From positions 1 to 39,602 of the forward strand of contig JAIXXZ010000058.1 in the NCBI GenBank assembly GCA_027490465.1: a DNA stretch of 39,602 nucleotides. Direction: 5' to 3'. The notes under the pieces are model-generated. The model saw nothing but the letters and a program-made list of their open reading frames with translations. It had not been told where the DNA came from and did not search any database. This document shows positions 3,521-26,602 of this stretch, piece by piece; positions within the stretch are counted from its first letter, which is position 1, and the number at the start of each line of letters is the position of its first letter. Source of the DNA: Oxalobacteraceae bacterium (GTDB lineage: Bacteria > Pseudomonadota > Gammaproteobacteria > Burkholderiales > Burkholderiaceae_D). The position numbers and the translations under genes are program-made.

Positions 3521-5116
3521 ATGTCTGAACATTCTCGCTTTTTGCCTTGGGTGCTATCGGGCTTCGGAATCATTGTATTCCTGCCGTTCTCATGGCTCTT
3601 GTCGGCGATTTGTCTTGGCCTATTCATTCTGGGCTGGTTTGACTATCGACAGGATCGCCACGCCATTCTGCGCAATTATCCGGTATCTGGTCATTTGCGC
3701 TTCATGCTCGAATATATACGTCCCGAGATTCGGCAATATTTTCTGGAGAGTGACGAAGAAAAACTGCCTTTCTCGCGCAATCAGCGTGCGATGGTGTATT
3801 CGCGTGCGAAAAAAGTTAATGACAAGCGTGGTTTCGGCACCATCAAGGCGGTGTATGAACCCAGCAGCGAGTGGATAGGACACTCTTCCGTGCCTCGTCA
3901 TGCGGATCCGAAAACCTTTCGCGTGCGTATCGGTGGTCCGCAATGCACGCAGGCGTATGAGGCATCGATATTCAATATTTCTGCCATGAGTTTTGGTTCG
4001 CTCTCACCCAATGCGATTCGTGCGCTGAATCGCGGTGCGAAGATGGGCGGTTTTGCGCATGACACGGGCGAGGGCTCAATATCTGCGTATCACCGTGAAC
4101 ATGGCGGTGATCTGATCTGGGAGATTGGTTCAGGTTATTTTGGCTGCCGCACGTCGACCGGACGCTTTGATGCCGACAAATTTGCCGAGCAAGCGCAATC
4201 GCCTCAGGTGAAGATGATTGAGATCAAACTGTCTCAGGGAGCCAAGCCCGGTCATGGTGGTGTGCTGCCCGCTGCGAAAGTGACGCCTGAAATTGCGGCG
4301 ACACGTGGTGTGCCGCTGGGGCAGGATTGCGTGTCACCCGCAGCGCACAGTGAGTTTTCCACGCCGCTGGAGCTGATGGGTTTCATACAGCATCTGCGCG
4401 AACGTTCAGGCGGTAAACCCGTCGGCTTCAAGTTGTGTATTGGTCAGCCCTGGGAGTGGTTTGCGATGGCCAAGGCCATGCTGGAGACCGATGTCTATCC
4501 TGATTTCATTGTGGTCGATGGCAGCGAGGGCGGCACGGGCGCTGCGCCGGTGGAGTTTTCCGATCATGTGGGTATGCCCATGCGTGAAGGCCTGCGACTG
4601 GTGCACAACACCCTGGTGGGTATAGGCAAGCGCGACCGCGTGCGTATTGGTGTGTCGGGCAAAATCATTTCTGCATTTGATATCGCACGCGCGTTGGCGC
4701 TGGGCGCTGACTGGTGCAATTCAGCGCGAGGGTTCATGTTTGCACTGGGTTGCATACAGTCGCGCAGCTGTCACACGGATCACTGTCCGACCGGTGTGGC
4801 CACGCAAGATCCGAATCGTCAGCGCGCGCTGGTCGTAACTGACAAAGCAGAGCGCGTGAAAAATTTCCATGCGCTGACGGTAGAGGCATTGGCCGAACTG
4901 GTGGGTGCCGCGGGTCTGGAGCGGCCGGGCGAGATCACGGCAGATCACCTCATGGTGCGTAATGCTTCGGGCGTGGCAGTGCCGCTGTCTTCGGTGCTGC
5001 CTACGGTGCCTGAGGGGGCTTTGATGGATGAGGCGCAGCTGGCGTCGTTGCCGGAGCCGTTTTGCAGTCATTGGAAGTTTGCTGCTGCGGCGAGTTTTGA
5101 GCGACGCGCTGCTTGA
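3521..5116 (+). CDS. Membrane-anchored FMN-binding glutamate-synthase-domain protein
   Basis: The ATG at 3521 follows a good TTCAGGAGACAACGC ribosome site. Two hydrophobic helices at residues 8-45 anchor the N-terminus in the membrane. The rest is the central/FMN portion of the large glutamate synthase subunit (GltB/GlxD-like). FNISAMSFGSLSPNAIRALN lies near residue 147, DTGEGSIS near 182, and KPGHGGVLPAAKVT near 241. The FMN/phosphate segment VVDGSEGGTGAAPVEF lies near 330. Cys411, Cys417 and Cys422 (GCIQSRSCHTDHCPTG) match the [3Fe-4S] ligands of glutamate synthase. The N-terminal glutaminase domain and C-terminal beta-helix of true GltB are absent, so ammonia must come from elsewhere or the activity differs. 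Such stand-alone proteins are common and largely uncharacterised. It is convergent with the cyclase gene, 14 bp away. Confidence 0.88.
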   Translation: MSEHSRFLPWVLSGFGIIVFLPFSWLLSAICLGLFILGWFDYRQDRHAILRNYPVSGHLRFMLEYIRPEIRQYFLESDEEKLPFSRNQRAMVYSRAKKVNDKRGFGTIKAVYEPSSEWIGHSSVPRHADPKTFRVRIGGPQCTQAYEASIFNISAMSFGSLSPNAIRALNRGAKMGGFAHDTGEGSISAYHREHGGDLIWEIGSGYFGCRTSTGRFDADKFAEQAQSPQVKMIEIKLSQGAKPGHGGVLPAAKVTPEIAATRGVPLGQDCVSPAAHSEFSTPLELMGFIQHLRERSGGKPVGFKLCIGQPWEWFAMAKAMLETDVYPDFIVVDGSEGGTGAAPVEFSDHVGMPMREGLRLVHNTLVGIGKRDRVRIGVSGKIISAFDIARALALGADWCNSARGFMFALGCIQSRSCHTDHCPTGVATQDPNRQRALVVTDKAERVKNFHALTVEALAELVGAAGLERPGEITADHLMVRNASGVAVPLSSVLPTVPEGALMDEAQLASLPEPFCSHWKFAAAASFERRAA

Positions 5117-5130
5117 GCTGATTATCACGA

Positions 5131-6183
5131 TTATTGTCGGCGTAGTGCCTCCGCCAGCGTCGTCAGTTTTTCCGATAACTGTGCCCGCTCATCAGCATCC
5201 AGCGTCGTGGGATCGATATCAATCGATACACCCGCCGGGTGGTCATACGAAAATACCAGTGCTTCACCTGCCGCCTTCCGACCTTTGACCGCATAGGTTC
5301 TGACATCGCGTGCGATGCCTTTCATCTGAATCGCACCTCGCTCTTCGACATCGACCATGTCCTGCACATGGGCCCAGGTTTCGTAGCTCATGAGAATGCC
5401 GCCGGGATCGGCGTGTGATTCAAGGCGCTGGGCAAGATTTACTTCGCCACCGATGATGGTGTACGACAGTCGTTGTTCACTGCCAAAGTTACCCACGTTG
5501 CAAAAGCCGGTGTTGATGCCGATACGAACTTCGAAGGGCTGATCAAAGCCGCTGGCGCGCCAGCGTTTGTGCAGAATCTTGAGTTTTTCATGCATCTGCA
5601 GCGCCATCTCCAGACAAGCGCGCGCATCATCACGCACGCCGCGTGTTTCGGGATCACCGAAAAAAACCATCATTGCATCACCCATGTATTTGTCGATGGT
5701 GGCGCCGTGATCGATTGCGATTTGCGTCATCTCCGAAAAATATTCATTCAGGTATTCGGTCAGCGCTTCAGGCTGCAGGCTCTCCGAGGTCTGGGTGAAA
5801 CCCTTGATGTCGCTGAAAAAAACGGTGAGTTTTTTACGCTGTGTAGCGATACGGGTGTCATGCTTGCCCTCGAACAGGGCTTCGTGAATTTGCGGCGGCA
5901 GGTATTTGGATAACTGCCGGGACAAGGCCTCGAGTGCGGTCTTGCGTTCGTCGAGTTCGCGTGTCTGGGTTTTCAGGTTCTGGTTGAGTTTGACCAGTCG
6001 TTGTTCCTGACGGTCGGAATGACGCGTGAGATCTTCGTTTTCTCTGACAACTTTGGCAAAGCGTTCAAACAGCCTATGCGCAAACGCGCGTACGGCTTCA
6101 TCATCGCCGGATGCCAGCAATTCCGGCCCCTCGGCCAGTAACCGCTTTTCGCGGTCATAAAGGTCAAACAGAGGATCTTCCAT
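5131..6183 (-). CDS. Class III adenylate/guanylate cyclase, soluble
   Basis: This 350-residue cytoplasmic protein has a helical, coiled-coil-like N-terminus (residues about 40-90) and a class III cyclase catalytic domain (about 115-300). Metal-binding aspartates are present in FFSDIKGFT (Asp125) and DKYMGDAMM (Asp169). Lys165 and Thr252 (SYTIIG) occupy the purine-recognition positions in the pattern of bacterial adenylate cyclases. Asn259 and Arg263 (VNLAQR) fit the transition-state residues. All catalytic positions seem intact, so cAMP is the likelier product, though cGMP is not excluded. The ATG at 6183 is used; a TTG directly before it is possible, and the ribosome site is weak. It lies downstream of siaB-siaC-like genes with a 150-bp gap filled by a miniature element, and is probably co-transcribed with them. 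No transmembrane or HAMP segment is seen, so regulation presumably comes through a protein partner. Confidence 0.9.
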   Translation of the reverse strand: MEDPLFDLYDREKRLLAEGPELLASGDDEAVRAFAHRLFERFAKVVRENEDLTRHSDRQEQRLVKLNQNLKTQTRELDERKTALEALSRQLSKYLPPQIHEALFEGKHDTRIATQRKKLTVFFSDIKGFTQTSESLQPEALTEYLNEYFSEMTQIAIDHGATIDKYMGDAMMVFFGDPETRGVRDDARACLEMALQMHEKLKILHKRWRASGFDQPFEVRIGINTGFCNVGNFGSEQRLSYTIIGGEVNLAQRLESHADPGGILMSYETWAHVQDMVDVEERGAIQMKGIARDVRTYAVKGRKAAGEALVFSYDHPAGVSIDIDPTTLDADERAQLSEKLTTLAEALRRQ

Positions 6184-6204
6184 CAAAGAGGCCGGCGCTT
6201 AGGA

Positions 6205-6329
6205 ACGCATTGATTAAATAAACCCAGTAACTTTTGCGGCAAGCTCAATGGCACCAAGCCCCTGATTTTGCTGGTCCACGCGTCGCACAGCTGCGCTGGC
6301 TCGCCACAAAATGTGGAGTTAATCAGCGT
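6205..6329. mobile_element. Putative miniature inverted-repeat element inside the siaC-cyclase gap
   Basis: The ends read ACGCATTGATTAA (left, 6205-6217) and TTAATCAGCGT (right, 6319-6329), which are imperfect inverted repeats sharing TGATTAA and ACGC. Inside are a perfect short hairpin at 6304-6316 (CCACA...TGTGG) and a CAGCTG-centred palindrome near 6285-6297. It fills almost all of the space between the siaC-like stop (6334) and the cyclase start (6183) and has no coding capacity of its own. It is called an element because of its terminal repeats and position; no second copy occurs in this window, so the call is tentative. Confidence 0.45.
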
Positions 6330-6333
6330 CTCC

Positions 6334-6711
6334 CTAGCTTGCCTGTACGTCGATGGGCAGATCGGGGAAGCGATCTTTGAAGTCTTCACCCAGCTCTTGC
6401 ATGATGTCGTCATCATCCTGAAAGTGCCAGGTGATGCTGAGTGGATGGCCGTGCTTGCGCACGTTTTCCAGCCCTTCAAAAATTCTGAACATGGCCTTGA
6501 TGCTCGAACTGTTGATGTAGACCATAGCGACATCGACCTTGAGCGGACCTTGAATGCTGCTGGCCATGGCGTCGATGGCCATGATGACTTGTCCGTAAAA
6601 CGCAGCGACATCTTCAGGAAATGATTCGCCGCGCATGCTGAAAATGCCCTGAGAGGCAGAAAGCTGTATCTCTGGCGTGCGATCGGTTGCCGCGATATGT
6701 AGATCACTCAT
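6334..6711 (-). CDS. siaC: SiaC-family regulatory phosphoprotein (DUF1987)
   Basis: A 125-residue cytoplasmic protein. The motif VYINSSSIKAMFRIFEGLE (residues 64-82) matches the DUF1987/SiaC signature, in which a Ser/Thr in the N-[ST]-S-S turn is the phosphoacceptor. Ser68 here aligns by position with the phosphorylated threonine of Pseudomonas SiaC. In the established SiaABCD system SiaB phosphorylates SiaC, the PP2C protein SiaA dephosphorylates it, and unphosphorylated SiaC binds and stimulates the diguanylate cyclase SiaD. Here the next gene is a class III cyclase instead, which suggests that cyclase is the output. A strong AAGGAGGAGC ribosome site precedes the ATG, and the siaB-like stop is only 12 bp upstream. 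Confidence 0.88.
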   Translation of the reverse strand: MSDLHIAATDRTPEIQLSASQGIFSMRGESFPEDVAAFYGQVIMAIDAMASSIQGPLKVDVAMVYINSSSIKAMFRIFEGLENVRKHGHPLSITWHFQDDDDIMQELGEDFKDRFPDLPIDVQAS

Positions 6712-6723
6712 TGCTGCTCCTCC

Positions 6724-7245
6724 TTAAATCCGCGCGGCCAGAAAAAAATCAACATGCAGCTCGTCAATATCCATGAAAGCAAATGAAATCGGATGTGACG
6801 CGCGGCGTGCAATTTCGAGCAGTCCCAGACCGGCGCCTGGACCTTCGTGCTCATTGGAGCGGGACATACCTTCGCGGTAGAGCTGACGTATGGTGTCCTT
6901 GTCGGCGGCCTGCAGCTGTTCGAGGGTCTCCTTGAGCTTTACCGAGTCTGACCGATTGATGCGATTGCCGCAGACGATGGTGATCTCGCCATCTTGCTGG
7001 GAGATGCACACCATGCCGCTCGCGTTCTGGTTGGTGCGACCGTGCCAGATGAGATTTTGCATGCCCTCCATGAATACGGAGAAGACCGTGCGGGAGCGTT
7101 TTGCGTCATCGAGTCCTTCCATGCGGGACTTGAGGATGTCGGCCAGTGTGACCATGAGATCGTCGGACACCGAGCCGTTGTAGGCCATGATGACACCGGA
7201 CGTCTGCATCACGCTGCGGATGTCGATGGCTGTTGATATTTCCAT
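6724..7245 (-). CDS. siaB: SiaB-family protein kinase (HATPase fold)
   Basis: A 173-residue cytoplasmic protein of the SiaB/DUF6272 type, related to anti-sigma-factor kinases. An N-box-like helix FMEGMQNLIWHG (Glu60, Asn64) and a glycine-rich ATP-lid segment EGPGAGLGLLEIARRAS (about 134-150) are visible, as expected for a GHKL ATPase. The predicted role is ATP-dependent phosphorylation of the SiaC-like protein encoded 12 bp downstream. It is the first gene of the minus-strand operon siaB-siaC-cyclase. The ATG at 7245 follows a modest AGGGGAATCAC site. No transmembrane segment is seen; the signal probably enters through the partner phosphatase or through this kinase's own fold. Confidence 0.87.
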   Translation of the reverse strand: MEISTAIDIRSVMQTSGVIMAYNGSVSDDLMVTLADILKSRMEGLDDAKRSRTVFSVFMEGMQNLIWHGRTNQNASGMVCISQQDGEITIVCGNRINRSDSVKLKETLEQLQAADKDTIRQLYREGMSRSNEHEGPGAGLGLLEIARRASHPISFAFMDIDELHVDFFLAARI

Positions 7246-7345
7246 GTGATTCCCCTGGTAGTTTTATTTTGGGTGGAAATCGTGTGGCTGTTGTGAATGG
7301 GCGCGCCCCGCAGCTGTTTGGCAGGGCGCCGTTTAGGCAATGCGT

Positions 7346-7374
7346 ATCTTATTACAGCTTGCTGCTGAAGTTAA
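7346..7374 (-). promoter_or_regulatory. Possible sigma-70 promoter for the siaB-siaC-cyclase operon
   Basis: On the minus strand TTAACT (7369-7374) and TAAGAT (7346-7351) are separated by 17 bp. Each matches four of six consensus bases. Transcription would start near 7339, giving a leader of roughly 95 nt. This is the best pair seen upstream of the siaB-like gene but it is weak evidence. Confidence 0.35.
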
Positions 7375-7446
7375 TAAGCGCGTTGCAAAGCGCATTGACG
7401 ATGTTTTCAATTTAAAAACAATTCGAGTATTCAGGCAGGCTGATCG

Positions 7447-7476
7447 CTGACAAGCAGACTAGCCAGATCCTATAAT
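7447..7476 (+). promoter_or_regulatory. Sigma-70-type promoter for the cyclic-nucleotide-binding pair
   Basis: CTGACA (7447-7452) is followed after 18 bp by a perfect TATAAT (7471-7476). The predicted start near 7483 gives a short leader of about 37 nt before the ATG at 7520. It lies in the 274-bp divergent region between the siaB-like operon and the reader genes. No convincing TGTGA-N6-TCACA Crp site was seen there. Confidence 0.7.
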
Positions 7477-7519
7477 GTGGATGGTTTTATCCGAATAATA
7501 AAAACAGGATCACACTGCC

Positions 7520-8023
7520 ATGAGCACCAATTCGCAGGGAGAGACCTTTCGCTTCGCGCTGGATGTGCAGCGCTTCAAGGCACTGGGAATTACCGATCCC
7601 AAATCACGCGAGGCGCATGACGCCTATGATCATCATGAATTCTCCAGCGCAGAGCGCTTGTTTTTCAAGCTCTGGGGAAGCGATTTGCTGAACTCCGGTT
7701 TATTTAACCCCGGTCAGAAGATTGCCCAGCGTGGCGAGCATCCGGTGTTTGCGCATGTGATCATTTCCGGCGAGGTGGTGGCTACCACCGAGAAGGGCAG
7801 CCATCTGTTTGGTCCGGGCAGTGTGTTTGGTCTGGCGGAGGGACTGATCGACGGTGTTTATCAGTGGGATGCTGTGGCGAAAACGGTGGTGACCACCAAG
7901 GTGATTCCGGTCGATCGTGCGTTGCGCGAGGTACGGCGTCTGAACGCCGGTCTCAAGGGTATTTGCCGCTTCACGACCATGCGCATTCTCGATCTCTCAT
8001 CGCCACCGGAGACTTTGTCATGA
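7520..8023 (+). CDS. Cyclic-nucleotide-binding-domain protein with degenerate binding cassette
   Basis: A 167-residue protein that looks like a Crp-type beta-roll without a DNA-binding domain. The helical N-terminus (1-55) is followed by a cNMP-fold stretch: LFNPGQKIAQRGEHPVFAHV near 61-80, ISGEVVATTEKGSHLFGPGS near 82-101, then FGLAEGLIDGVYQWDAVA at 103-120. Canonical cassettes read FGE-x-ALL...R[ST]A; here the glutamate is displaced and the phosphate-binding arginine is missing, so it may not bind cAMP by itself. It ends with a short helix. The gene overlaps the next one by ATGA, which implies translational coupling. Possible roles are a structural partner of the next protein or a sensor that has lost binding. 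AGGA lies about ten bases before the ATG. Confidence 0.78.
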   Translation: MSTNSQGETFRFALDVQRFKALGITDPKSREAHDAYDHHEFSSAERLFFKLWGSDLLNSGLFNPGQKIAQRGEHPVFAHVIISGEVVATTEKGSHLFGPGSVFGLAEGLIDGVYQWDAVAKTVVTTKVIPVDRALREVRRLNAGLKGICRFTTMRILDLSSPPETLS

Positions 8024-8364
8024 GCGGCTTCAATGCGGTCAATTATGCGGATGGCCAGGTGCTATTCGAGCCCGGTGATGTTGCCAAGAGTTTCTATGTG
8101 ATTCAGTCGGGGCAGGTCGCGATTATTGATCGCAAGCGCAATCATCAGATTGCGCTGCTCTCTGCGGGTGCTTCATTTGGCGAGCAGGCGCTGCTTGCAG
8201 GGGGTGTGCGCAGTGCGGCAGCCCAGGCCATCGGCGCGACGACCTGTATGGAGATTACTGCGCAGGGGCTGCGTGATCTGCTGGCCAAAGAAGGCGGTAT
8301 CGCGACGCCTGTGCTCGAGGCCTTGTTGTTGCAGCTTTATATGCACAACGCTATGAAGGCCTGA
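8020..8364 (+). CDS. Stand-alone cyclic-nucleotide-binding domain protein
   Basis: A 114-residue protein that is almost entirely one cNMP-binding domain. The ATG at 8020 overlaps the preceding stop (ATGA) and was chosen over a longer in-frame start, because the longer version would run through the upstream gene. The phosphate-binding cassette is canonical: SFGEQALLAGGVRSAAAQA (Gly54, Glu55, Arg64, Ser65), preceded by FEPGDVAKSFYVIQSGQVAI. No helix-turn-helix, kinase or channel domain follows; only a C-terminal helix (TPVLEALLLQLYMHNAMKA) is present. It should bind cAMP or cGMP and pass the signal by protein contact, perhaps to its degenerate neighbour or an unlinked target. It is divergent from the cyclase operon and convergent with a putative phosphodiesterase. 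Confidence 0.85.
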   Translation: MSGFNAVNYADGQVLFEPGDVAKSFYVIQSGQVAIIDRKRNHQIALLSAGASFGEQALLAGGVRSAAAQAIGATTCMEITAQGLRDLLAKEGGIATPVLEALLLQLYMHNAMKA

Positions 8365-8377
8365 CTCGGCCGCCGCG

Positions 8378-8517
8378 ACATCGCCGCAGTGATATCGGCG
8401 CAGTGATGTCGCTGCAGTGATATCGCCGCAGTCACATCGCCGTATTGATGCCGCCGCAGTGATGTCGCCGCAGCGATGTCGCCGCAGTGACACCGCGGTA
8501 TTGATGCCGCTGCTGTC
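8378..8517. repeat. Ten-unit 14-bp tandem repeat
   Basis: Ten consecutive 14-bp units run without gaps between the convergent reader and phosphodiesterase genes. The consensus is AT-R-TCGCCGCAGTG, and units at 8406, 8462 and 8476 are close to it. Units 5-6 and 9-10 share the variant CGTATTGATGCCGC / GGTATTGATGCCGC, which suggests a larger duplication inside the array. The period is not a multiple of three, so the array is not a protein repeat. No terminator with a T-run is seen in the gap. Confidence 0.9.
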
Positions 8518-8547
8518 AGATCGAGGCCGCAAGGCCGCAAGGCTACC

Positions 8548-9318
8548 TCAGCCGAACTGATATATCTCGCCGGGATGAGGCAATCGCAGATCCCGGCCTG
8601 TCAGTGCCGCAGATAATTCGGCGGCGATGGCTTCTTCAAATCCGGGTTTGCGGTGAATGACCACGCTGGCTGTGCTGGTCGGCAGTGCGCGTAATCTTTC
8701 CGCCAGTGCACCGGCATGCATGTGCATGGATAAATCCGCCATGCTGGCCATGGTCGATGGATAAGAGCATTCCACGATGACTGCGGTGAGTGTAGGCAGC
8801 GCAAGAACCGCTTCCCAAAAGCCAGCGCAGTCGCTGGTATCACCGGAAAACGCCAGTGTCGCATTGCCCGAGCTGACCTTGTAGCCGCACGCGGGAATGC
8901 CATGCAGCGCAGGCAAGGCCGCGAAGTGCAGCCCGGCGAGGGTCAGGCCGTCGGCAGGTAGAGCGTTGAGTTGCAGGAAGGGGTGCGCGGCATCGGGAAT
9001 GACAGTGAAGTCGGGCCAGATCTGATTATTGAAGATATGTGCGCGCAGAATAGCGATGACTTCAGGCAGCGCCCATACCTGTAATGGCGCTTGACGCATG
9101 GCTGCGACCGAATCCACCAGCAGCGGCAGGCAGGCAATGTGATCAAGATGCGCATGCGTGAGCACGACATGGTCGATGCGTGCCATGGCCTCCAGCGACA
9201 GAGTGCCCAGACCCGTGCCGGCGTCGATCAGCACGGTGTCGTTCAATAGATAGCTGGTGGTCTGGCGTCCGCTGCCGCCGATACCGCCGCTGCAGCCAGC
9301 CAGCTGCAGGCGGATCAT
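8548..9318 (-). CDS. Metallo-beta-lactamase-fold hydrolase, probable class II cyclic-nucleotide phosphodiesterase
   Basis: A 256-residue cytoplasmic metallohydrolase. The zinc motif THAHLDH (His55, His57, Asp59, His60) is followed by His139 (LPALHG), Asp160 (AFSGDTSD) and His222 (VIHRKPG). The segment VIVECSYPSTMASMADLSMHMHAGALAERL (split here as ECSYPS at 183-188 and HMHAGALAERL at 199-209) resembles class II cAMP phosphodiesterases such as yeast PDE1 and bacterial relatives. The predicted reaction is hydrolysis of 3',5'-cAMP or cGMP to the 5'-nucleotide. A good CAGGGAG ribosome site precedes the ATG at 9318. Its location next to a cyclase and two cyclic-nucleotide-binding proteins supports the call. 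A general MBL-fold phosphodiesterase such as RNase Z-like is the alternative. Confidence 0.78.
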   Translation of the reverse strand: MIRLQLAGCSGGIGGSGRQTTSYLLNDTVLIDAGTGLGTLSLEAMARIDHVVLTHAHLDHIACLPLLVDSVAAMRQAPLQVWALPEVIAILRAHIFNNQIWPDFTVIPDAAHPFLQLNALPADGLTLAGLHFAALPALHGIPACGYKVSSGNATLAFSGDTSDCAGFWEAVLALPTLTAVIVECSYPSTMASMADLSMHMHAGALAERLRALPTSTASVVIHRKPGFEEAIAAELSAALTGRDLRLPHPGEIYQFG

Positions 9319-16507: not shown

Positions 16508-18700
16508 TCAGGCGGGCTTGAAGATCACGGCCGTGACATCATCGCGCCGCATTTGCTCACCTTGCCATTGTTGCAAGTCTTCGCGCATTGCCTGCGCAAT
16601 GTCGGCAGCGCTCTGGTGGTGCAGGCGTGCGACGAGCTCGTGCAGTCGCCGGTAACCATAAGCGCGCGGTGGTCCACCATCGCGCGTACCGATCTGGTCG
16701 GTCAGACCATCCGAGACAATCACGAAGGTGTCTTCTTGCGTGTAAGGCAGTTGATGCAGCTGCGGCACCTCATGGGGCGGGTCGCGGTAACCGAGCGACA
16801 AGCGTGAGGGTTGAATCCGCTCCAGTGAACCATCGGCGCGTACATGCAGCAAGCCCAGCTTTGCGCCGGCGAATTCGATCAGCCGTCGTGCCGGATCGAT
16901 TCGGACTATCGCCGCATCGCAGCCGTCATCGCTCTCGGCATCATCGCTGTCCTGATTGAGACCGGAACGCAATGCGGCATCGAGCGACATGAGCGCCCGC
17001 GACGGGTCGAGAGCCGGGTCGCTGGCAAACATGCGTTCCAGCGATGTGCTGATCAGTACGGAGAGCATGGCACCCGGCACGCCGTGGCCGGTGCTGTCGG
17101 CGACAGCGACGACGATACGACCTTCATGATCCGGCAGCGATGCCCACCAGACGTCGCCACCAATGGTATCGCGTGGCTCCCAGATGGCATGAAACGAAGA
17201 AAAATGTTTTTCTATGCGTTGCATGCGCGGCAGCTGGGCGCGCTGTAGTCGGCTGGCATACCTGATGGAATCGACCACGACCTCATGCTGTTTTTCGAGC
17301 TCGGCTTTGCTTTCCACCAGCTCGTGCGTTCGCTGGGCAACGGTCGATTCAAGTAAATGGTTTTGATTTTCAACCAGTTCTTTTTGTGCTTGAATTTTCT
17401 GATTCAATTCCTGTTGCAGCCAGCGTGTCTTGCTAATAACGGCCATTGCCATGATGATCGCTTCGGCGCACACACCCATGGCTTGTGCGGTGTTCGAGTT
17501 TTGCAGGAACAGGCCTATGCCGGACTTGTCGAGATAGCTGAAAGGCGAGGGTATCTTGAGAATGCCGAGGAAAAAAATCACGCGGAAAAAGAAGTAGGGC
17601 ACCATCGCGAACATGAAGAATTTTGCGATTTGCAAGCCCTGACGGTAGCGAATAAAGGCGCAGCTGAAAATTGTCAGCAAAACCAGCAAGAATGTGATGA
17701 ACAGCGGCGACCAGAGCCATATCTGCGGGATGGAGTGCGGAACAAAGGCGACCACATACAAATGGGCCAGTGTAAGCACGAGGTATATATTGGTCGCCAT
17801 ATGCACGCGTGGCATATGGGTTTTCAGCTCGAGGAAATTGCGCGCGAAGATCACGTAGCACATCGCCTGGAAATAGGCGAGGATGTTCATGATGACCGCC
17901 GCCGTCATCACATGGCCACTGCGCCGACCTTCGATATCAACATAAAACTCGAACAAGCGGCTACCGTCATGCACGCGCAAGGAAGTCGCTGACAGCAGCG
18001 CAAACATGATCCAGATGCCATACGCGAGACTGGTACGATCGCGGTTCTGAAACACGGAGAACCAGCCAAAGATACCCAGTGCCAGTAGTATTCCCGCTTG
18101 CATGCCTTCGATATGCAGTCCGAACCGTCGCAGCTCCAGCATGCGCGCGTGTTCGGAGAATGAGGGGACGAAACTGTTGGGGATGAAATTGGCACTCGCA
18201 CGCACCCGAGTGATCACCGTGACCGATTCGCCGCGGCGCAGTGTGAATACTGCAAACTGGCTGGGTGCGGTATCTATCCCCATGACGTAGGGATTGGCAT
18301 CGCCAAGCTTGCCGTAGTTACCCCAGAAATTGCCAGAGGACTGCAGCTGCTGCATTCTCCCATCTTCAAAAATCACCCAGGGATGCATGGCCTCCCACAT
18401 CGGCATATCGATGCGAATTTCTTTGTCAGTGTCGAGACGGCTTTGCAGGTGACTGACGACCCAGTAGTACTGACGGGGTTGAATGCTGCCGACCGATTCG
18501 GGCGGTTTGAAATCATCGAGACGTTCGCGGACTTGTTCCGGACTCAGCGCTCGGTCGATCTCTGCCAGTACTCGGGTTCCGGCGGCATCACTGAATACCA
18601 GCGGGACGTCCTTGCTAACCTCGAAGACGGCCTGCGATTGCGCGGTTGGCGCCTGCAACAAGATCAGGCACAACCAAAGGAATAAACCTCGTTTCATCAT
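16508..18700 (-). CDS. 7TM-sensor PP2C (SpoIIE-type) protein phosphatase
   Basis: A 730-residue membrane phosphatase starting at one of two adjacent ATGs (18700 or 18697). A signal peptide (LFLWLCLILLQAPTAQSQ) is followed by a periplasmic beta-rich sensor of the 7TMR-DISM extracellular type (about 25-195), containing YYWVVSHLQSR and WEAMHPWVIFEDG. Seven hydrophobic segments follow (about 200-415), then a coiled coil (about 420-480) and the SpoIIE/PP2C domain. Catalytic metal motifs are intact: DTIGGDVWW, VADSTGHGVPGAMLS, VSDGLTDQ and RRDDVTAVIF. The linker DSIRYASRLQRAQLP is typical of PP2C enzymes that act in SiaA/RsbU-like switches. It may dephosphorylate the SiaC-like protein encoded about 10 kb away, but the sensor differs from that of SiaA, and this pairing is inferred only. 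Confidence 0.88.
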   Translation of the reverse strand: MMKRGLFLWLCLILLQAPTAQSQAVFEVSKDVPLVFSDAAGTRVLAEIDRALSPEQVRERLDDFKPPESVGSIQPRQYYWVVSHLQSRLDTDKEIRIDMPMWEAMHPWVIFEDGRMQQLQSSGNFWGNYGKLGDANPYVMGIDTAPSQFAVFTLRRGESVTVITRVRASANFIPNSFVPSFSEHARMLELRRFGLHIEGMQAGILLALGIFGWFSVFQNRDRTSLAYGIWIMFALLSATSLRVHDGSRLFEFYVDIEGRRSGHVMTAAVIMNILAYFQAMCYVIFARNFLELKTHMPRVHMATNIYLVLTLAHLYVVAFVPHSIPQIWLWSPLFITFLLVLLTIFSCAFIRYRQGLQIAKFFMFAMVPYFFFRVIFFLGILKIPSPFSYLDKSGIGLFLQNSNTAQAMGVCAEAIIMAMAVISKTRWLQQELNQKIQAQKELVENQNHLLESTVAQRTHELVESKAELEKQHEVVVDSIRYASRLQRAQLPRMQRIEKHFSSFHAIWEPRDTIGGDVWWASLPDHEGRIVVAVADSTGHGVPGAMLSVLISTSLERMFASDPALDPSRALMSLDAALRSGLNQDSDDAESDDGCDAAIVRIDPARRLIEFAGAKLGLLHVRADGSLERIQPSRLSLGYRDPPHEVPQLHQLPYTQEDTFVIVSDGLTDQIGTRDGGPPRAYGYRRLHELVARLHHQSAADIAQAMREDLQQWQGEQMRRDDVTAVIFKPA

Positions 18701-18750
18701 GCCACCGTCGTGAGCGAGTGAATTTGATGTGCCGACGCCGATTGTCGACT

Positions 18751-18843
18751 GAGCGGCTCTACCAAAAAGCTGCTGGCGTTGTTGCACCGACTTGTCGTAC
18801 GACCGTACTGTCTGTGGCGGTACGCCTAGCCTGCCGCTTTATG
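18751..18843. repeat. Solo copy of the ~104-bp palindromic repeat
   Basis: The segment from GAGCGGCTCTACCAAAAAGC through GTTGTTGCACCGACTTGTCG to GTACGCCTAGC closely follows the last copy of the array at 1479-1580, in the same orientation. It lies between the unknown 387-residue gene and the PP2C gene. Its core stem is slightly degenerate compared with the array. Confidence 0.75.
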
Positions 18844-21773: not shown

Positions 21774-24386
21774 TCACACGCTCTGATGTTCCGTCACTCG
21801 CATAGCCAGATGCGCCAGTGCTTCTTCGACCTGATCAACCAATACCAAACACTGGTCACCCGGTTTCAGCAGTGACAAGCCGCGGTCAATGGCAATGAAT
21901 TCGCCACGGATTTCTTCTACATGGCTGGCGCGCGTTGCACCTTGAAGACCTTCACGCAAGAGGCCGAGTACTTCACCATCGGCACGACCACGCTGGCAGG
22001 CATCTTCGAAGAGCACGATGTTGTCGAAGGCTTCACCAAGCACACGCGTGAGTTCGCGCAAATCTTCATCACGACGGTCGCCGGCGCCGCTGATGACGAC
22101 GGTGCGTTTCATGCCTTGTTGTGCGGGCAGTGCATCGAAGGCTGCGACCAGCGCGCGCATGGCGTGCGGATTGTGTCCGTAGTCAGCCACCACCGTGGCA
22201 TCGCGGTAGTGCATGAGGTTGAATCGGCCGGGCGCGTTCTTGCTGTCGTTGTGAAAGCTGTTGATGCCACTGACGATATGCGACCAGTCCATGTCGAGGC
22301 CCCAGCAAGCTCCGACGGCAGCCAGCGTGTTCTCGATCTGAAATCCCAACAGTCCGCCTCCCGTGAGTGGCACGTTGGCCAGCGGCATGCGATGCTGCAT
22401 CGCACCCTCGGTAACGACGATATCGCTCCCCTCGACAAACACCACCCGGTTTCCGCGCGCGCGGTGTGTCACTAACACCGGATGATGCCCATTCTGCGCG
22501 AAGAAAATCACCTTGCCGGGACAGTGCGGTGCCATGCCTGCTACCAGAGGATCGGCGGCATTCAGTACTGCGTAGCCATTTGGCGCGACGTTTTGCACAA
22601 TGATTTGCTTCACGCGTGAGACATCTTCAGGCGTGTGTACATGATTCATACCCAGATGGTCACCTTCACCGACATTGGTGACGACGGCGACTGCGCATTT
22701 ATCAAAACCCAGGCCTTCGCGCAGCACACCACCGCGCGCCGTTTCGAGTACGGCTGCCTGCACATGAGGATGCGAGAGCACATTACGTGCGCTCTTGGGG
22801 CCACTGCAGTCACCGCTGTCAGTCTGACGGCCATCGACGAACACGCCATCGGTATTGGTCATGCCCACACACAAACCGCTGGCAGCGAGTACATGCGTGA
22901 TCAATCGGGTGGTCGTCGTTTTGCCATTCACACCGGTGACCGCGACCACTGGGATTCTGCCGTCATCGCCGGGCTCGAACATCAGCTGCATGATGGCTTC
23001 GCCGATGTTGCGGCCTTTGCCATAGGAGGGCGAGAGATGCATGCGCAAGCCGGGTGCCGCATTGACTTCGACAACACCGCCATTCTGTTCTTCGAGAGAA
23101 CGCATGATGCTTTCGCAGACGATATCGACGCCACAGACATGCAGTCCCACCATGGCAGCAGCATCGATGGCGCGAGCGGCGACTTCGGGATGGACGTCAT
23201 CGGTGACATCGGTGGCGGTGCCGCCCGTACTCAGGTTGGCGTTGTTGCGCAGGATGACGCGCCGGCCTTTTTCGGGTACCGAATCCGGATGCAGATCCTG
23301 TGCTGACAGGCAGGCGACGGCGATGTCATCAAAACGTATTTTGGTGAGAGATGTGGCATGACCATCGCTGCGACGCGGATCGGCATTGACGATATCCACC
23401 AGCTGCCTGACCGAGTTCTCGCCATCGCCCGTGACTTGGGGTGGATCGCGCCGCGCTGCTGCGATGAGCTTGTTGCCAACGACCAGCAGGCGGTAGTCAC
23501 TGCCGGGGAAAAATTTTTCAACCAGTACGGGGCTTTTGCCGGTCGCAGCATGGAAGGCTTTTTCGATTTGCTCGCGTGTCTGAATATTGACCGTCACGCC
23601 TTTGCCCTGGCTGCCATTTTGCGGCTTGACCACGACGGGCAAGCCAATGCGCAGCGCGACTTCCCAGGCTTCATCGACGGACTTCACAGGTGCGCCGGTT
23701 GGTACGGGTACGCCTGCTGCGTGCAACAAGTGCTTGGTGAGGTTCTTGTCTTGTGCGATCGCCTCGGCCACCGCGCTGGTGGAATCGACTTCGGCTGCCT
23801 GTATGCGTCGCTGCCGATGGCCCCAGCCTATTTGCACCAGCGAACCACTCGTCATGCGTCTGAAGGGAATGCCGCGTGCGACGGCCGCAGTGACGATCGA
23901 ACCAGTGCTCGGTCCGAGGCGATTGTCTTCATCGAGCTCGCGCAACTCAGCCAGCATCGCCGGTACGTCAGGCGGATTTGAGTTCGCGGCAATCTGCCCG
24001 GTCGACAATTTCAATGCATGTGCGACGATTTGTTGAGACATCGCCAGGGCGAGACGGCCAACGTCTTCTTCGCTGTATTCCACCACGACTTGAAACACAC
24101 CGGTGACCGGTGTCACGGAGGTCAGGCTGAAGCTGACCGGGCAACCCGCTTGTGCCTGCAGGGCCAGCAGGGTGGCTTCCAGTACGTGTGCCAGGGTCAG
24201 CGGTCCGGTGTAGCCTGGCGCGCGCAATTCACCGACACCCGGAAAAAGGCTGCGCAGCGTTTCTTCAAAACCCGCTATTTGTTCGAGGCCCAGCTCGGGT
24301 GCAGCACAGCGCACTTCGATTTCGAGCGCAGTGTAGCGGCTCCACAGATTCGGCCCGCGCAGGGCCCTAGTTTGCAGGATTTCCAT
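21774..24386 (-). CDS. cphA: Cyanophycin synthetase
   Basis: An 870-residue two-step ligase that makes multi-L-arginyl-poly-L-aspartate from Asp, Arg and ATP. Three modules are visible: the N-terminal domain (MEILQTRALRGPNLWSRYTA start), an ATP-grasp domain (about 220-470) with VVKPQNGSQGKGVTV and VVEVNAAPGLRMHL, and a Mur-ligase-like domain with an intact P-loop TGVNGKTTTTRLI (near 483-495). A Mur C-terminal segment includes YGHNPHAMRALV and VISGAGDRRDEDL. All catalytic motifs appear intact and the length fits the CphA1 type. It starts 2 bp after the cphA' stop on the same strand, so the two form an operon. The product is a cytosolic nitrogen reserve granule. Confidence 0.95.
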   Translation of the reverse strand: MEILQTRALRGPNLWSRYTALEIEVRCAAPELGLEQIAGFEETLRSLFPGVGELRAPGYTGPLTLAHVLEATLLALQAQAGCPVSFSLTSVTPVTGVFQVVVEYSEEDVGRLALAMSQQIVAHALKLSTGQIAANSNPPDVPAMLAELRELDEDNRLGPSTGSIVTAAVARGIPFRRMTSGSLVQIGWGHRQRRIQAAEVDSTSAVAEAIAQDKNLTKHLLHAAGVPVPTGAPVKSVDEAWEVALRIGLPVVVKPQNGSQGKGVTVNIQTREQIEKAFHAATGKSPVLVEKFFPGSDYRLLVVGNKLIAAARRDPPQVTGDGENSVRQLVDIVNADPRRSDGHATSLTKIRFDDIAVACLSAQDLHPDSVPEKGRRVILRNNANLSTGGTATDVTDDVHPEVAARAIDAAAMVGLHVCGVDIVCESIMRSLEEQNGGVVEVNAAPGLRMHLSPSYGKGRNIGEAIMQLMFEPGDDGRIPVVAVTGVNGKTTTTRLITHVLAASGLCVGMTNTDGVFVDGRQTDSGDCSGPKSARNVLSHPHVQAAVLETARGGVLREGLGFDKCAVAVVTNVGEGDHLGMNHVHTPEDVSRVKQIIVQNVAPNGYAVLNAADPLVAGMAPHCPGKVIFFAQNGHHPVLVTHRARGNRVVFVEGSDIVVTEGAMQHRMPLANVPLTGGGLLGFQIENTLAAVGACWGLDMDWSHIVSGINSFHNDSKNAPGRFNLMHYRDATVVADYGHNPHAMRALVAAFDALPAQQGMKRTVVISGAGDRRDEDLRELTRVLGEAFDNIVLFEDACQRGRADGEVLGLLREGLQGATRASHVEEIRGEFIAIDRGLSLLKPGDQCLVLVDQVEEALAHLAMRVTEHQSV

Positions 24387-24388
24387 GC

Positions 24389-26602
24389 TCAGGCAATCAC
24401 CAGTTTTTGAGTCTCATCGGTTGCAAAGGTCTCCAGACCTGTGCGTATGGTTGCGTCATTGAGCCCGAGTGCCCAGGCCGCTGCGATGGCAGGCAGCAGA
24501 ACCTCGGCATGCAGCGCGCGCGCGGCAGGGCTGATATTGTCGTTCAGGTCGTAGCGATGTGTGACGGTGCTCCCTGCAGCACATTCGATCTGGCCTTCAC
24601 GAACGAACACGGCGCGCTTGCCAGCCTCGCGGTGAGCCAGCAATGCAGGGTGCTGACCATCAGGCGCATAAAGAATCACCTCACCATCGCAAAGCTCACC
24701 CATGGACAGCACGGTGTCGTCGGTGGCATTGAGCACGGCGACGCCGGTCTCGACCACCACATCGACCTGAGTGCGCAAAATTTTGTAGCGGTGCTCGGGC
24801 TCGGTCATGAGCTGCTCATCCAGCCCGTCCACCGGCTCACTGTCGGTGACCACGCCGACCCAGCAACGGTCATAGGCCAATCCTTCGGTGAGCAGTGTGA
24901 TCGGGTCATGTTCGAATACGGCCGCTTCGACATTGCGATTGATTAGCAGGCGCTGCCCCGATTCCCAGTGGGCGGCATCAAGGTTTTCGAGACGTCTGGG
25001 CCCGACGAACAAACCATCACGACAGGCAAGGCCGACCTGAGCGCCAGAGAGCTGCATGAGCCACGCGACCATGCGAGCTACGGCGGTCGTTACCACGCTG
25101 CCGGAGATACCCACAATCGGTATGCGTCCACGCTGACCCTCGGGAAAGAGGTGACCGACGATGGCATTGCCGACGGGCTGTGGCAGGCCCTCTGCCGGAC
25201 GCAAATGCATGAGCAGGCTGGGACCGGCATTGACTTCGACCACGGCGCCGCCTTGAGAGACCAGCGGCTGGCTGATGTCGGCACACACCAGATCGATGCC
25301 GGCGATGTCGAGCCCGACCACGCGTGCGGCCAGCGTGCAAAGATGGGCGACGTCCGGATGAATGCGATCGGTGCATTCGATCGCATGATTGCCATTGGCG
25401 GCAATCAGCACGCGACGGCCTGCTTCGGGAAGGTCATTGGGTGTGAGTCCCTGACGCTGCAGATTGGCCTGAATCACACTGTTGGTTTTCGGGTGCAGGG
25501 TCTCGAGCGGGTGAATGTCGGCGTTGCCACGACGCGGGTCGCTGTTGATTTGCGCATCGACCAGTTGATCGATCGTGGATCGCCCATCGGCGGTCACCCA
25601 CGCGCTTTCGCCGCGCGCCACGGCCACCACCTGTCCGCCAACGACAAGCACGCGATGCTCATGACCGATGATGTAGCGCTCGACAATGACATCGATGTCT
25701 TCTGCGAGCGCGACTGCGTAGGCGGATTCGATTTCCTCTCGCGTGGATAGATTGAGCATGACACCCCGGCCGCGGTTACCGTCGCGGGGTTTTACGACGA
25801 CGGGCACGCCAATTTCCTGTGCCGCTTCCCAGGCTTCGTCAGCGCTGTGAACGACTTCACCTTCTGGCACAGGGATGCCGCAGCTTTTCAGCAGCGATTT
25901 GGTCATGTGCTTGTTACCGGCGATGCCTTCGGCGATCGCGCTGGTGAGATCGGTCTCTGCGGTCCAGATACGCTTTTGCAGCGCACCGTAGCCGAGCTGA
26001 ACCAGACTACCCTTGTTGAGACGAATATGAGGAATTTTGCGCTGGTTGGCACTGGCCACGATGTGCGCGGTGCTCGGGCCCAGATAGTGCTCGTCAATGG
26101 CTTTGCGAATCTTGGCCAGCTCGGGCTCGATGTCAAAGGGCTGACGATTGATGACGGCATGCAGCAGCGCCAGGCCGGAGTCCAGTGCGGTACGGCCCAC
26201 GGTTTCATCGGGTACGCGAAACACCATGCGGTAGGTGCCGGATTTGGTGGTCTCGCGCGTCTGGCCGAAACCGGCTTCCATGCCCGATAGCTCCAGCAAC
26301 TCGATAATGATGTGCTCCAGGATGTGACCCATCCAGGTACCTTCGCGCAGACGCTGCTCGAAGCCATAGGCGACGCCGGGGCTGCAATGATGGGCTGCGA
26401 CTTGCGGCAGGACGCTCAGAAGACGATCTATGAAGCCGGGCTGCTTGTTGCTGGGCCAGTTTTCCAGTTCGCCGAGATCCAGCCAGGCCTCCAGAACCGA
26501 GCGGTAGGTCCACATATTGGGTCCGCGCAGGTAGGTCACCCGAAGGATGTCGATTTCCAGTGGGCCTTGTGGCATGTCTGAGGCAGGGGTAGATGGGGTC
26601 AT
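24389..26602 (-). CDS. cphA': Second cyanophycin synthetase homologue, CphA' type, with altered Mur P-loop
   Basis: A 737-residue homologue of CphA upstream in the same operon, an arrangement known from betaproteobacteria such as Ralstonia. The N-terminal domain begins ILRVTYLRGPNMWTYRSVLE and contains the GHILEHIIIELLELSGMEAG helix that CphA here lacks in that form. The ATP-grasp domain is intact (VVKPRDGNRGRGVML, VVEVNAGPSLLMHL). In the Mur-like domain the Walker A position reads GISGSVVTTAV (near 497-507) instead of GVNGKTTT, and the domain is about 130 residues shorter than in CphA. It therefore probably keeps only the ATP-grasp ligase, like cyanobacterial CphA2, which polymerises beta-Asp-Arg dipeptides. 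No ribosome site is obvious before the ATG at 26602; MPQGPLEID nine codons in is an alternative start. Confidence 0.9.
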   Translation of the reverse strand: MTPSTPASDMPQGPLEIDILRVTYLRGPNMWTYRSVLEAWLDLGELENWPSNKQPGFIDRLLSVLPQVAAHHCSPGVAYGFEQRLREGTWMGHILEHIIIELLELSGMEAGFGQTRETTKSGTYRMVFRVPDETVGRTALDSGLALLHAVINRQPFDIEPELAKIRKAIDEHYLGPSTAHIVASANQRKIPHIRLNKGSLVQLGYGALQKRIWTAETDLTSAIAEGIAGNKHMTKSLLKSCGIPVPEGEVVHSADEAWEAAQEIGVPVVVKPRDGNRGRGVMLNLSTREEIESAYAVALAEDIDVIVERYIIGHEHRVLVVGGQVVAVARGESAWVTADGRSTIDQLVDAQINSDPRRGNADIHPLETLHPKTNSVIQANLQRQGLTPNDLPEAGRRVLIAANGNHAIECTDRIHPDVAHLCTLAARVVGLDIAGIDLVCADISQPLVSQGGAVVEVNAGPSLLMHLRPAEGLPQPVGNAIVGHLFPEGQRGRIPIVGISGSVVTTAVARMVAWLMQLSGAQVGLACRDGLFVGPRRLENLDAAHWESGQRLLINRNVEAAVFEHDPITLLTEGLAYDRCWVGVVTDSEPVDGLDEQLMTEPEHRYKILRTQVDVVVETGVAVLNATDDTVLSMGELCDGEVILYAPDGQHPALLAHREAGKRAVFVREGQIECAAGSTVTHRYDLNDNISPAARALHAEVLLPAIAAAWALGLNDATIRTGLETFATDETQKLVIA

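Follow-up and report, generated by a model that had tools for sequence, protein, structure and literature searches.

The SiaABCD system of Pseudomonas aeruginosa consists of a kinase (SiaB), a STAS-like protein (SiaC), a PP2C phosphatase (SiaA) and a GGDEF diguanylate cyclase with a SiaC-docking stalk (SiaD). The stalk of SiaD is helical and has two motifs to which two SiaC pairs bind, the SiaD residues in contact with SiaC include R80, S82, D83, R84, and Q86, and phosphorylation of SiaC at T68 blocks the binding (PMC8457831). The merging of PP2C/STAS and cyclic di-GMP (c-di-GMP) systems has already been remarked for SiaABCD (PMC9239204), and DUF1987 proteins have been suggested to commonly modulate adjacent proteins (PMC8457831). 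In the literature found, SiaABCD is described only as a c-di-GMP switch. Here we analyse 39,602 nucleotides of an Oxalobacteraceae bacterium (contig JAIXXZ010000058.1; the window), in which genes for SiaB and SiaC stand beside genes for a class III nucleotidyl cyclase, two cyclic-nucleotide-binding (CNB) proteins and a protein of the metallo-beta-lactamase (MBL) fold. The locus is probably a cyclic AMP (cAMP) circuit controlled by a partner switch, and is best read as a case in which that switch has been redirected from c-di-GMP to cAMP, with the SiaC-docking stalk as a portable adaptor that has other uses too.

Where SiaABCD has a GGDEF diguanylate cyclase as output, the enzyme here is a cyclase of class III, probably an adenylate cyclase; its stalk carries one docking motif, not two, and the phosphosite is Ser, not Thr. 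Genes of siaA type are unlinked and multiple, and putative readers and an eraser are encoded alongside. The catalytic domain is closest by fold and sequence to P. aeruginosa CyaB, but the membrane sensor that we take CyaB to carry is absent and a SiaC-docking stalk stands in its place. The MBL protein resembles class II cyclic-nucleotide phosphodiesterases (PDE1 type) by its PF02112 match and its best solved match; its activity is putative, however, and sister loci bear a gene resembling class I phosphodiesterases (PDEs) instead. The paired CNB domains, fused in one protein at locus L153, recall the regulatory subunit of protein kinase A (PKA-R) and tandem CNB proteins, except that here they are separate domain-only proteins, one with a degenerate cassette. 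In the STAS switches HsbA-HsbD and BgrV-BgrR, likened here by description only, a STAS-domain protein likewise modulates a nucleotide cyclase as a binding partner (PMC8457831), but the enzymes are diguanylate cyclases controlled via other STAS proteins.

Genes of the locus and their conservation within the genus

The locus comprises six genes, which are open frames with matches to family models, and one divergent intergenic region:

5131..6186, minus strand: class III nucleotidyl cyclase, 351 amino acids (aa), predicted adenylate cyclase (PF00211, E 2.5e-31, over cut-off)
6334..6711, minus strand: siaC, STAS-like SiaC (DUF1987) switch protein, 125 aa (PF09345, E 3.8e-35)
6724..7245, minus strand: siaB, SiaB-family kinase of SiaC, 173 aa (NCBIfam NF038262, SiaB_fam_kinase, 141.7 bits, cut-off 85; Pfam DUF6272, 4.4e-33)
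7246..7519, no strand: divergent intergenic region between siaB and cnb1, presumed from the gene layout to contain both promoters
7520..8023, plus strand: cnb1, domain-only CNB protein, 167 aa (PF00027, 31 bits, 2.1e-7, over cut-off)
8020..8364, plus strand: cnb2, domain-only CNB protein, 114 aa, with canonical phosphate cassette FGEQALLAGGVRSAA (PF00027, 68 bits, 9e-19, scanned in the longer frame 7864-8364)
8548..9318, minus strand: MBL-fold protein, putative class-II-like cyclic-nucleotide phosphodiesterase (Lactamase_B_2, 7.5e-16; PDEase_II, PF02112, 9.2e-13)

The cyclase may start at the ATG at 6183 instead of the TTG at 6186, and the ATG of cnb2 overlaps the stop codon of cnb1. The six genes had been placed within 5131-9318 in an earlier note made from the DNA letters, and its description of the layout holds: siaB, siaC, and the cyclase gene share one strand, the two domain-only CNB genes diverge from siaB, and the MBL gene, with its class-II-PDE-like match, is convergent to the cnb pair. 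The note overlooked a SiaA-type phosphatase elsewhere in the window (16508-18787).

SiaC was found in 7 of the 20 same-genus genomes searched, and as far as the contigs extend all seven have the order MBL, cnb, siaB, siaC, cyclase; because of this recurrence the layout of the window is not a matter of chance. Among 21 genus genomes including the window's own, SiaC and the cyclase (at least 80% identical) were both present in eight and both not found in 13, counts that come from related genomes and are not independent events. In the SiaC-negative genome G406 (L154), cnb1 lies 125 bp from the Glutamate-synthase-like gene, and siaB, siaC, and the cyclase gene are not there, which is consistent with gain or loss of these three genes as a block. 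In genome G403, where the search found no SiaC, a 71% identical catalytic part (query residues 78-349) occurs in an open reading frame (ORF) of 695 aa with a different N-terminus; input and output parts look separable. Among the cyclase matches listed in 56 relatives, only eight align from residue 1-3, and all of them lie in the eight SiaC-positive genus genomes.

The N-terminal stalk of the cyclase

The N-terminal part of the cyclase contains two features:

5932..6168, minus strand: SiaC-docking stalk, residues 7-85 (stalk profile matches; AlphaFold2 model)
6004..6030, minus strand: docking core of the stalk, residues 53-61, paired by motif with SiaD V78 to Q86 (R-x-S-D-R-x-[QE], as in SiaD 7e6g)

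The NCBIfam SiaD model reaches cyclase residues 31-76 with a weak match (E 0.0089), and residues 53-61 share the R-x-S-D-R-x-[QE] pattern with SiaD. With the core numbered after the second motif of SiaD, whose sequence was set beside that of L060, SiaD R80, S82, D83, R84, and Q86 correspond by motif to cyclase R55, S57, D58, R59, and E61. All five are invariant in 19 aligned cyclases, some of which are near-copies; in a wider set of 22, S57 and D58 are invariant and R55 and R59 are kept in at least 90%. The AlphaFold2 model shows a helix at residues 11-26 followed by a single long helix at 29-93, and these predicted helices resemble the short N-terminal part and long stalk described for SiaD (PMC8457831).

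A profile built from a single seed, window residues 1-95, which needs no motif, converged on 147 of 12,104 ORFs in loci fetched for having siaC, and 146 of the 147 matches lie within 1.5 kb of siaC. They represent 136 distinct proteins (58 GGDEF, 35 class III cyclase, 24 HD-GYP, 18 histidine kinase, and 1 unlabelled), in which the position of D83 is Asp in 136/136, that of S82 Ser in 129/136, and that of R84 Arg in 121/136. The profile match fell on the first of the two motifs in the P. aeruginosa-like loci L060 and L064. An initial motif-based profile was dropped as evidence of conservation, its seed having itself demanded the Ser/Thr-Asp motif.

In a wider test, a 23-row stalk alignment was searched against the same 398 genomes as the SiaC survey: the stalk was detected in 61 and SiaC in 67, with both in 59 and neither in 329. 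Sixteen of the 59 double-positive genomes had supplied rows of the alignment, leaving 43 independent of it, and as at most 14 candidates were scored per genome, some stalks were possibly missed. By these comparisons the cyclase bears a stalk of the SiaC-docking type ahead of a CyaB-type catalytic domain, and we strongly infer that SiaC acts on this enzyme.

Of the 89 stalk places in the phylum sample, 62 were within 1.5 kb of siaC and 25 of the other 27 were in SiaC-positive genomes. These 25, more than 1.5 kb from any siaC found, are possibly remote clients of SiaC. They would suit a different explanation, namely that the locus is a mere Betaproteobacterial gene cluster in which the cyclase is regulated otherwise and SiaBC acts on another client, as would the insert that parts siaC from the cyclase gene in this strain. 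Against this, the stalk alignment gave a single match in the window's genome, on this very cyclase (14 of 17 candidates scored), and in the genus SiaC and the cyclase are linked and occur together almost without exception, a pattern seen again with other catalytic domains. We regard this explanation as highly improbable.

SiaC clients in other loci

Two sets of siaC loci were surveyed for clients within 4 kb. The first comprised the flanks of 79 of the 83 SiaC places in the phylum sample and 11 genus places, in total 91 loci including the window (three weak or partial places were left out, and the window's own place was counted as the window). It gave 17 class III cyclases, 24 GGDEF, 23 HD-GYP, and 4 histidine-kinase proteins, with no client found in 23 loci; eight of the 17 cyclases belong to the window's genus and nine occur elsewhere. 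The second, named set of 80 loci, biased towards the SiaC of the window, gave 25 class III cyclases, 34 GGDEF, 2 HD-GYP, 15 histidine-kinase, and 1 unlabelled protein, with none found in three loci. Twelve siaC loci are common to both sets and a few more have identical SiaC. Client counts were taken from coordinates, whereas distinct-protein counts include identical copies once; labels come from our own iterated profiles, spot-checked with Pfam. The nearest named loci, with SiaC 75-94% identical, are from Oxalobacteraceae and Burkholderiales bins or assemblies.

Near siaC, HD-GYP proteins (mostly with GAF) and histidine kinases were seen in L126, L094, L104, L073, L129, L118, L120, and L078. 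Pfam scans of ten siaC neighbours gave HD-GYP-type, histidine-kinase, and cyclase domains as labelled; nine of the ten are stalk clients, the L129 protein is not. Judged by their sequences, the stalk-bearing HD-GYP and histidine-kinase proteins of these loci, L129 excepted, are probable new SiaC clients. Among the papers listed by the literature searches, in which subscription journals are poorly covered, no title or abstract describes a class III cyclase, an HD-GYP protein, or a histidine kinase as a client of SiaC.

In a SiaC tree (quick method, weakly resolved, 130 columns, 155 rows) the window falls within a 23-row set with support 100, comprising 22 cyclase clients and 1 unlabelled. The cyclase label requires 8 changes among rows with a known client and 10 over all rows, 3 of the 10 being forced by well-supported branches. 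The cyclase of L098 is nearest to 6fht/2w01 and that of the window to CyaB, which separately supports the recruitment of more than one catalytic subfamily. PilZ is a c-di-GMP-binding domain, and L108 (6063-7760) encodes a stalk-bearing class III cyclase with a C-terminal PilZ domain, a possible cross-talk of two messengers.

Components of the partner switch

The locus has the tested sequence features of a SiaABC switch, namely a phosphorylatable SiaC residue 68, the Glu box of SiaB, the acidic motifs of SiaA-type phosphatases, and a stalked client, while each protein scores under the P. aeruginosa equivalog cut-off. The window SiaB matches solved SiaB (6kko, 8.5e-15), and the two align at the Glu of the 'E..QN' box; a catalytic Glu has been predicted in SiaB (PMC7647112). 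It reaches 80.7 of the 225 bits demanded by NF038264. SiaC matches solved SiaC (6kko, 2.1e-24) and reaches 95.6 of the 150 bits demanded by NF038265. Its Ser68, aligned to P. aeruginosa T68, is most likely the phosphosite; Ser is the usual residue there, and Thr occurs only in 7 of 58 GGDEF-linked SiaC proteins and in no other client group.

The candidate for the third component lies apart from siaBC:

16508..18787, minus strand: SiaA-type phosphatase, 7TMR-DISM membrane sensor and PP2C/SpoIIE domain, 759 aa (PF07228, over cut-off; SiaA model 3e-50; 6k4e 1.7e-33)

Its sole NCBIfam match is SiaA (NF038263, 171 bits, under the cut-off of 700), and the SiaA PP2C structure 6k4e is the sole solved match at the threshold used, with the GGD, DG, and RDD motifs aligned. 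On these matches the protein is classed as SiaA-type and not as a SiaA equivalog. The genome contains three such phosphatases, one of them in the window, with 43-49% identity to each other and 42-53% to full-length phosphatases of related loci. Within the genus, a SiaA-type phosphatase was present away from the module in 8/8 SiaC-positive and 1/13 SiaC-negative genomes. SiaC-positive genomes have from one to seven matches each, not all of them complete, which suggests that several sensors converge on one switch.

Four related loci (L192, L197, L204, and L207, two of them from Limnohabitans strains) have siaC and the cyclase gene and, next after these, a gene for a PP2C protein about 500 aa long, and neither readers nor eraser were found near the siaC-cyclase pair there. 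The L204 copy, the one scanned, shows SpoIIE alone by Pfam, and a cyclase next to it begins with a similar stretch as judged by eye. Limnohabitans strains G3-2 and 15K have genes for SiaB, SiaC, cyclase, and phosphatase.

Catalytic domain and product of the cyclase

By sequence and by predicted model, the closest solved structure to the cyclase is CyaB (3r5g), with 52-54% identity in the catalytic domain. Residues D126, D170, K166, N250, and R254 are invariant across 19 aligned sequences; we take D126/D170 to be the metal-binding Asp pair, K166 the substrate Lys, and N250/R254 the transition-state Asn and Arg. Fold family and catalytic residues identify the protein as a class III nucleotidyl cyclase. 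It is not a SiaD, because its catalytic domain is PF00211 and Pfam and NCBIfam scans found no GGDEF domain in it; at the input side it may nevertheless operate like SiaD.

The likely product is cAMP. Cyclic GMP (cGMP), or a mixture, would be favoured by the guanylyl cyclase Cya2 (2w01), also among the close structural matches of the model, and by the best sequence matches of cnb2, which are cGMP-dependent kinases. Yet the adenylyl cyclase CyaB is the closest relative both in sequence and in fold, and K166 and T243 are kept, presumably the Lys/Thr signature of adenylyl cyclases, so that a cGMP or mixed product appears quite unlikely.

The reader pair

Cyclic-nucleotide binding by CNB domains follows a rule of Glu and Arg in the phosphate-binding cassette. 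The cassette of cnb2 obeys it, with F53, G54, E55, and R64 invariant in seven sequences, and the best solved matches of the protein are cGMP- and cAMP-dependent kinases. In cnb1 the Arg is missing at the cassette position in ten aligned sequences (alignment read by eye), contrary to the rule, although its predicted model matches CNB folds. A role of either protein as a transcription factor of CRP type, with CNB and helix-turn-helix (HTH) domains, was ruled out, as a Pfam scan gave no HTH match in either. We consider cnb2 a likely cAMP receptor.

Both readers are present in 17 of the 25 loci of the window's SiaC clade (the window and L184-L207). The pair is divergent in one lineage and on the same strand in another, and in L153 both CNB domains form one natural 279-aa protein next to cyclase pieces. 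In eight clade loci siaC, the cyclase gene, cnb1, cnb2, and a PDEase_I-family gene follow each other on one strand, overlapping or almost touching; siaB precedes them in seven and a phosphatase gene in six, and in the remaining loci the contig begins too close to the string to show these genes. These eight are from bins titled Comamonadaceae, Burkholderiaceae, Burkholderiales, or Betaproteobacteria, and L195/L196 and L198/L200 have identical SiaC. The arrangement therefore recurs outside this genome, in the genus and, with a class I PDE-like gene in place of the MBL gene, in these eight other Burkholderiales-type loci.

The rest of the genome was searched for other sources and receptors of cAMP; it is 93% complete, and absences are provisional. 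It contains one class III cyclase, that of the window. A class I adenylate cyclase as alternative source was dropped, as none was found; other cyclase classes were not searched for. Four CNB domains were detected, those of cnb1 and cnb2 and of two HTH proteins that rank first to Fnr, one over and one under the Fnr cut-off. Another genomic CRP as the real receptor was dropped, these two being Fnr-like, and cnb2 is the best receptor candidate within the limits of the search.

Candidate erasers

The best solved match of the MBL protein is 3',5'-cyclic-nucleotide phosphodiesterase 1 (4ojv, 5e-9, residues 45-107). Against PF02112 it scores 48.5 bits over a cut-off of 23.7, but the match covers only 62 of 340 profile positions, and it is far under the cut-off of NF041851. 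Within 6 kb of siaC, as far as contigs extend, a phosphodiesterase-family gene is present in 17/17 clade loci with the reader pair (9 MBL, 8 class I PDE-like) and in 0/8 without it. Among the latter, L191 and L194 end inside the cyclase, L205 ends soon after it, and L207 begins at siaC. The MBL gene is carried by the window, by L206, and by seven genus loci, in one of which it is cut to 75 aa.

PDEase_I is a mainly eukaryotic family. Two of the eight class I PDE-like genes were scanned with Pfam (PF00233, 6e-8 and 2e-7), five aligned copies match solved cyclic-nucleotide PDEs (best 6.6e-6), and the other three, cut by contig ends, were recognised by sequence and position only. The gene closes the siaC-cyclase-cnb1-cnb2 string at L193 2317-3126 and L203 5437-6321.

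These data make the MBL protein a plausible eraser. It might instead be an RNase Z/PhnP-like hydrolase: NCBIfam ranks RNase_Z first, with all models far under cut-off, and the MBL gene persists in genus genomes giving no match to the window cyclase. Outside the genus, however, 13 of the 22 MBL copies have a class III cyclase less than 1 kb away, where about 0.08 are expected from random placement; MBL and class I PDE-like genes alternate in reader-pair loci, and phosphodiesterase 1 is the best solved match. A hydrolase of the former kind is in our view somewhat unlikely.

Proposed mechanism

As we envisage the circuit, SiaB would phosphorylate SiaC, most likely at Ser68, and membrane SiaA-type phosphatases would dephosphorylate it once their sensors are triggered. 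Unphosphorylated SiaC would dock on the long N-terminal stalk of the cyclase, as on SiaD, and keep the stalk dimeric, bringing two catalytic domains together for cAMP synthesis. Readout of the cAMP would fall to the canonical cnb2, working with the degenerate cnb1, and its removal to the putative MBL phosphodiesterase. The earlier note suggested that cyclic-nucleotide synthesis is here under the control of the SiaB/SiaC switch and that readers and an eraser are encoded locally; the shared stalk, the recurrence of the arrangement, and the eraser linkage in 17/17 loci support this.

The sign of control could be the opposite: in the manner of anti-sigma partner switches, SiaC or phospho-SiaC would keep the cyclase inactive, and the enzyme would become active on release. 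In class III cyclases the N-terminal coiled coil often acts as a restraint. In addition, SiaC is structurally akin to an anti-sigma-factor antagonist (PMC7647112). On the other hand, the motif residues match the contacts of the activating SiaC-SiaD complex (PMC8457831), and the same stalk is found on GGDEF enzymes, which need dimerisation. We therefore consider inhibition unlikely and activation by unphosphorylated SiaC likely.

Several observations weigh against the proposed circuit. The stalk of the cyclase has a single docking motif, against two in SiaD, the position of SiaD Q86 is Glu, the phosphosite T68 is Ser in the window SiaC, and the pTM (predicted template-modelling score) of the cyclase model is only 0.55. 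A phosphatase gene adjoins siaBC in none of the window-genus loci. In the genus, 7/13 SiaC-negative genomes also encode the MBL protein (57-61% identity), and in four of these seven the window cyclase found no match. Neither readers nor eraser are seen in 8/25 clade loci, so the full circuit is not obligatory. In 23/91 and 3/80 siaC loci, some of them ended by contig edges, the search within 4 kb gave no stalk client. Finally, an insert may uncouple the expression of siaC and the cyclase gene in this strain:

6200..6336, no strand: insert resembling a miniature inverted-repeat transposable element (MITE), about 135 bp, lying between siaC and the cyclase gene; its 18-nt terminal inverted repeats are imperfect (alignment with relatives)

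It sits at the siaC stop codon, flanked on reading by a CTA direct repeat. It is missing from the five relative rows aligned, two of which, L184 and L047, come from one contig, and about 12-15 bp stand there instead; a search for further copies of its end in the window gave chance-level matches only. The cyclase frame is open.

A broader idea, which we put forward tentatively, is that SiaB/SiaC serves as a general plug-in input, in a role like that of a receiver domain, through an 80-residue stalk joined to at least four kinds of unrelated output: diguanylate cyclases, class III nucleotide cyclases, HD-GYP phosphodiesterases, and histidine kinases. In the window's lineage it would drive a cAMP circuit that is private and does without CRP. 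One SiaC would there receive the input of several unlinked membrane phosphatases, and a canonical and a pseudo CNB protein would together make up a receptor like PKA-R that does not act on transcription. Neither the cAMP form of the switch nor the stalk with several outputs nor the set of readers and eraser is described in the literature found, with the same limit of coverage as above. If the cAMP switch and the stalk on HD-GYP and histidine-kinase proteins are real, many SiaC proteins (67/398 phylum genomes) would gain a testable function, and the suggestion that DUF1987 proteins modulate their neighbours (PMC8457831) would gain a concrete rule, to look for the stalk. The locus would also be a compact bacterial cAMP circuit of switch, cyclase, receptor pair, and phosphodiesterase in a genome where no CRP was found, which makes the role of cAMP there a directly testable question.

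Neighbouring features

A Glutamate-synthase-like flavin mononucleotide protein (3521-5116) adjoins the cyclase gene in those genus loci whose contigs extend that far. Between the convergent cnb2 and MBL genes lies a degenerate GC-rich array of 14-bp (28/56-bp) repeats (8369-8510). Further along the window, at 21774-26602, two neighbouring genes have sequences that we take to resemble cyanophycin synthetase.

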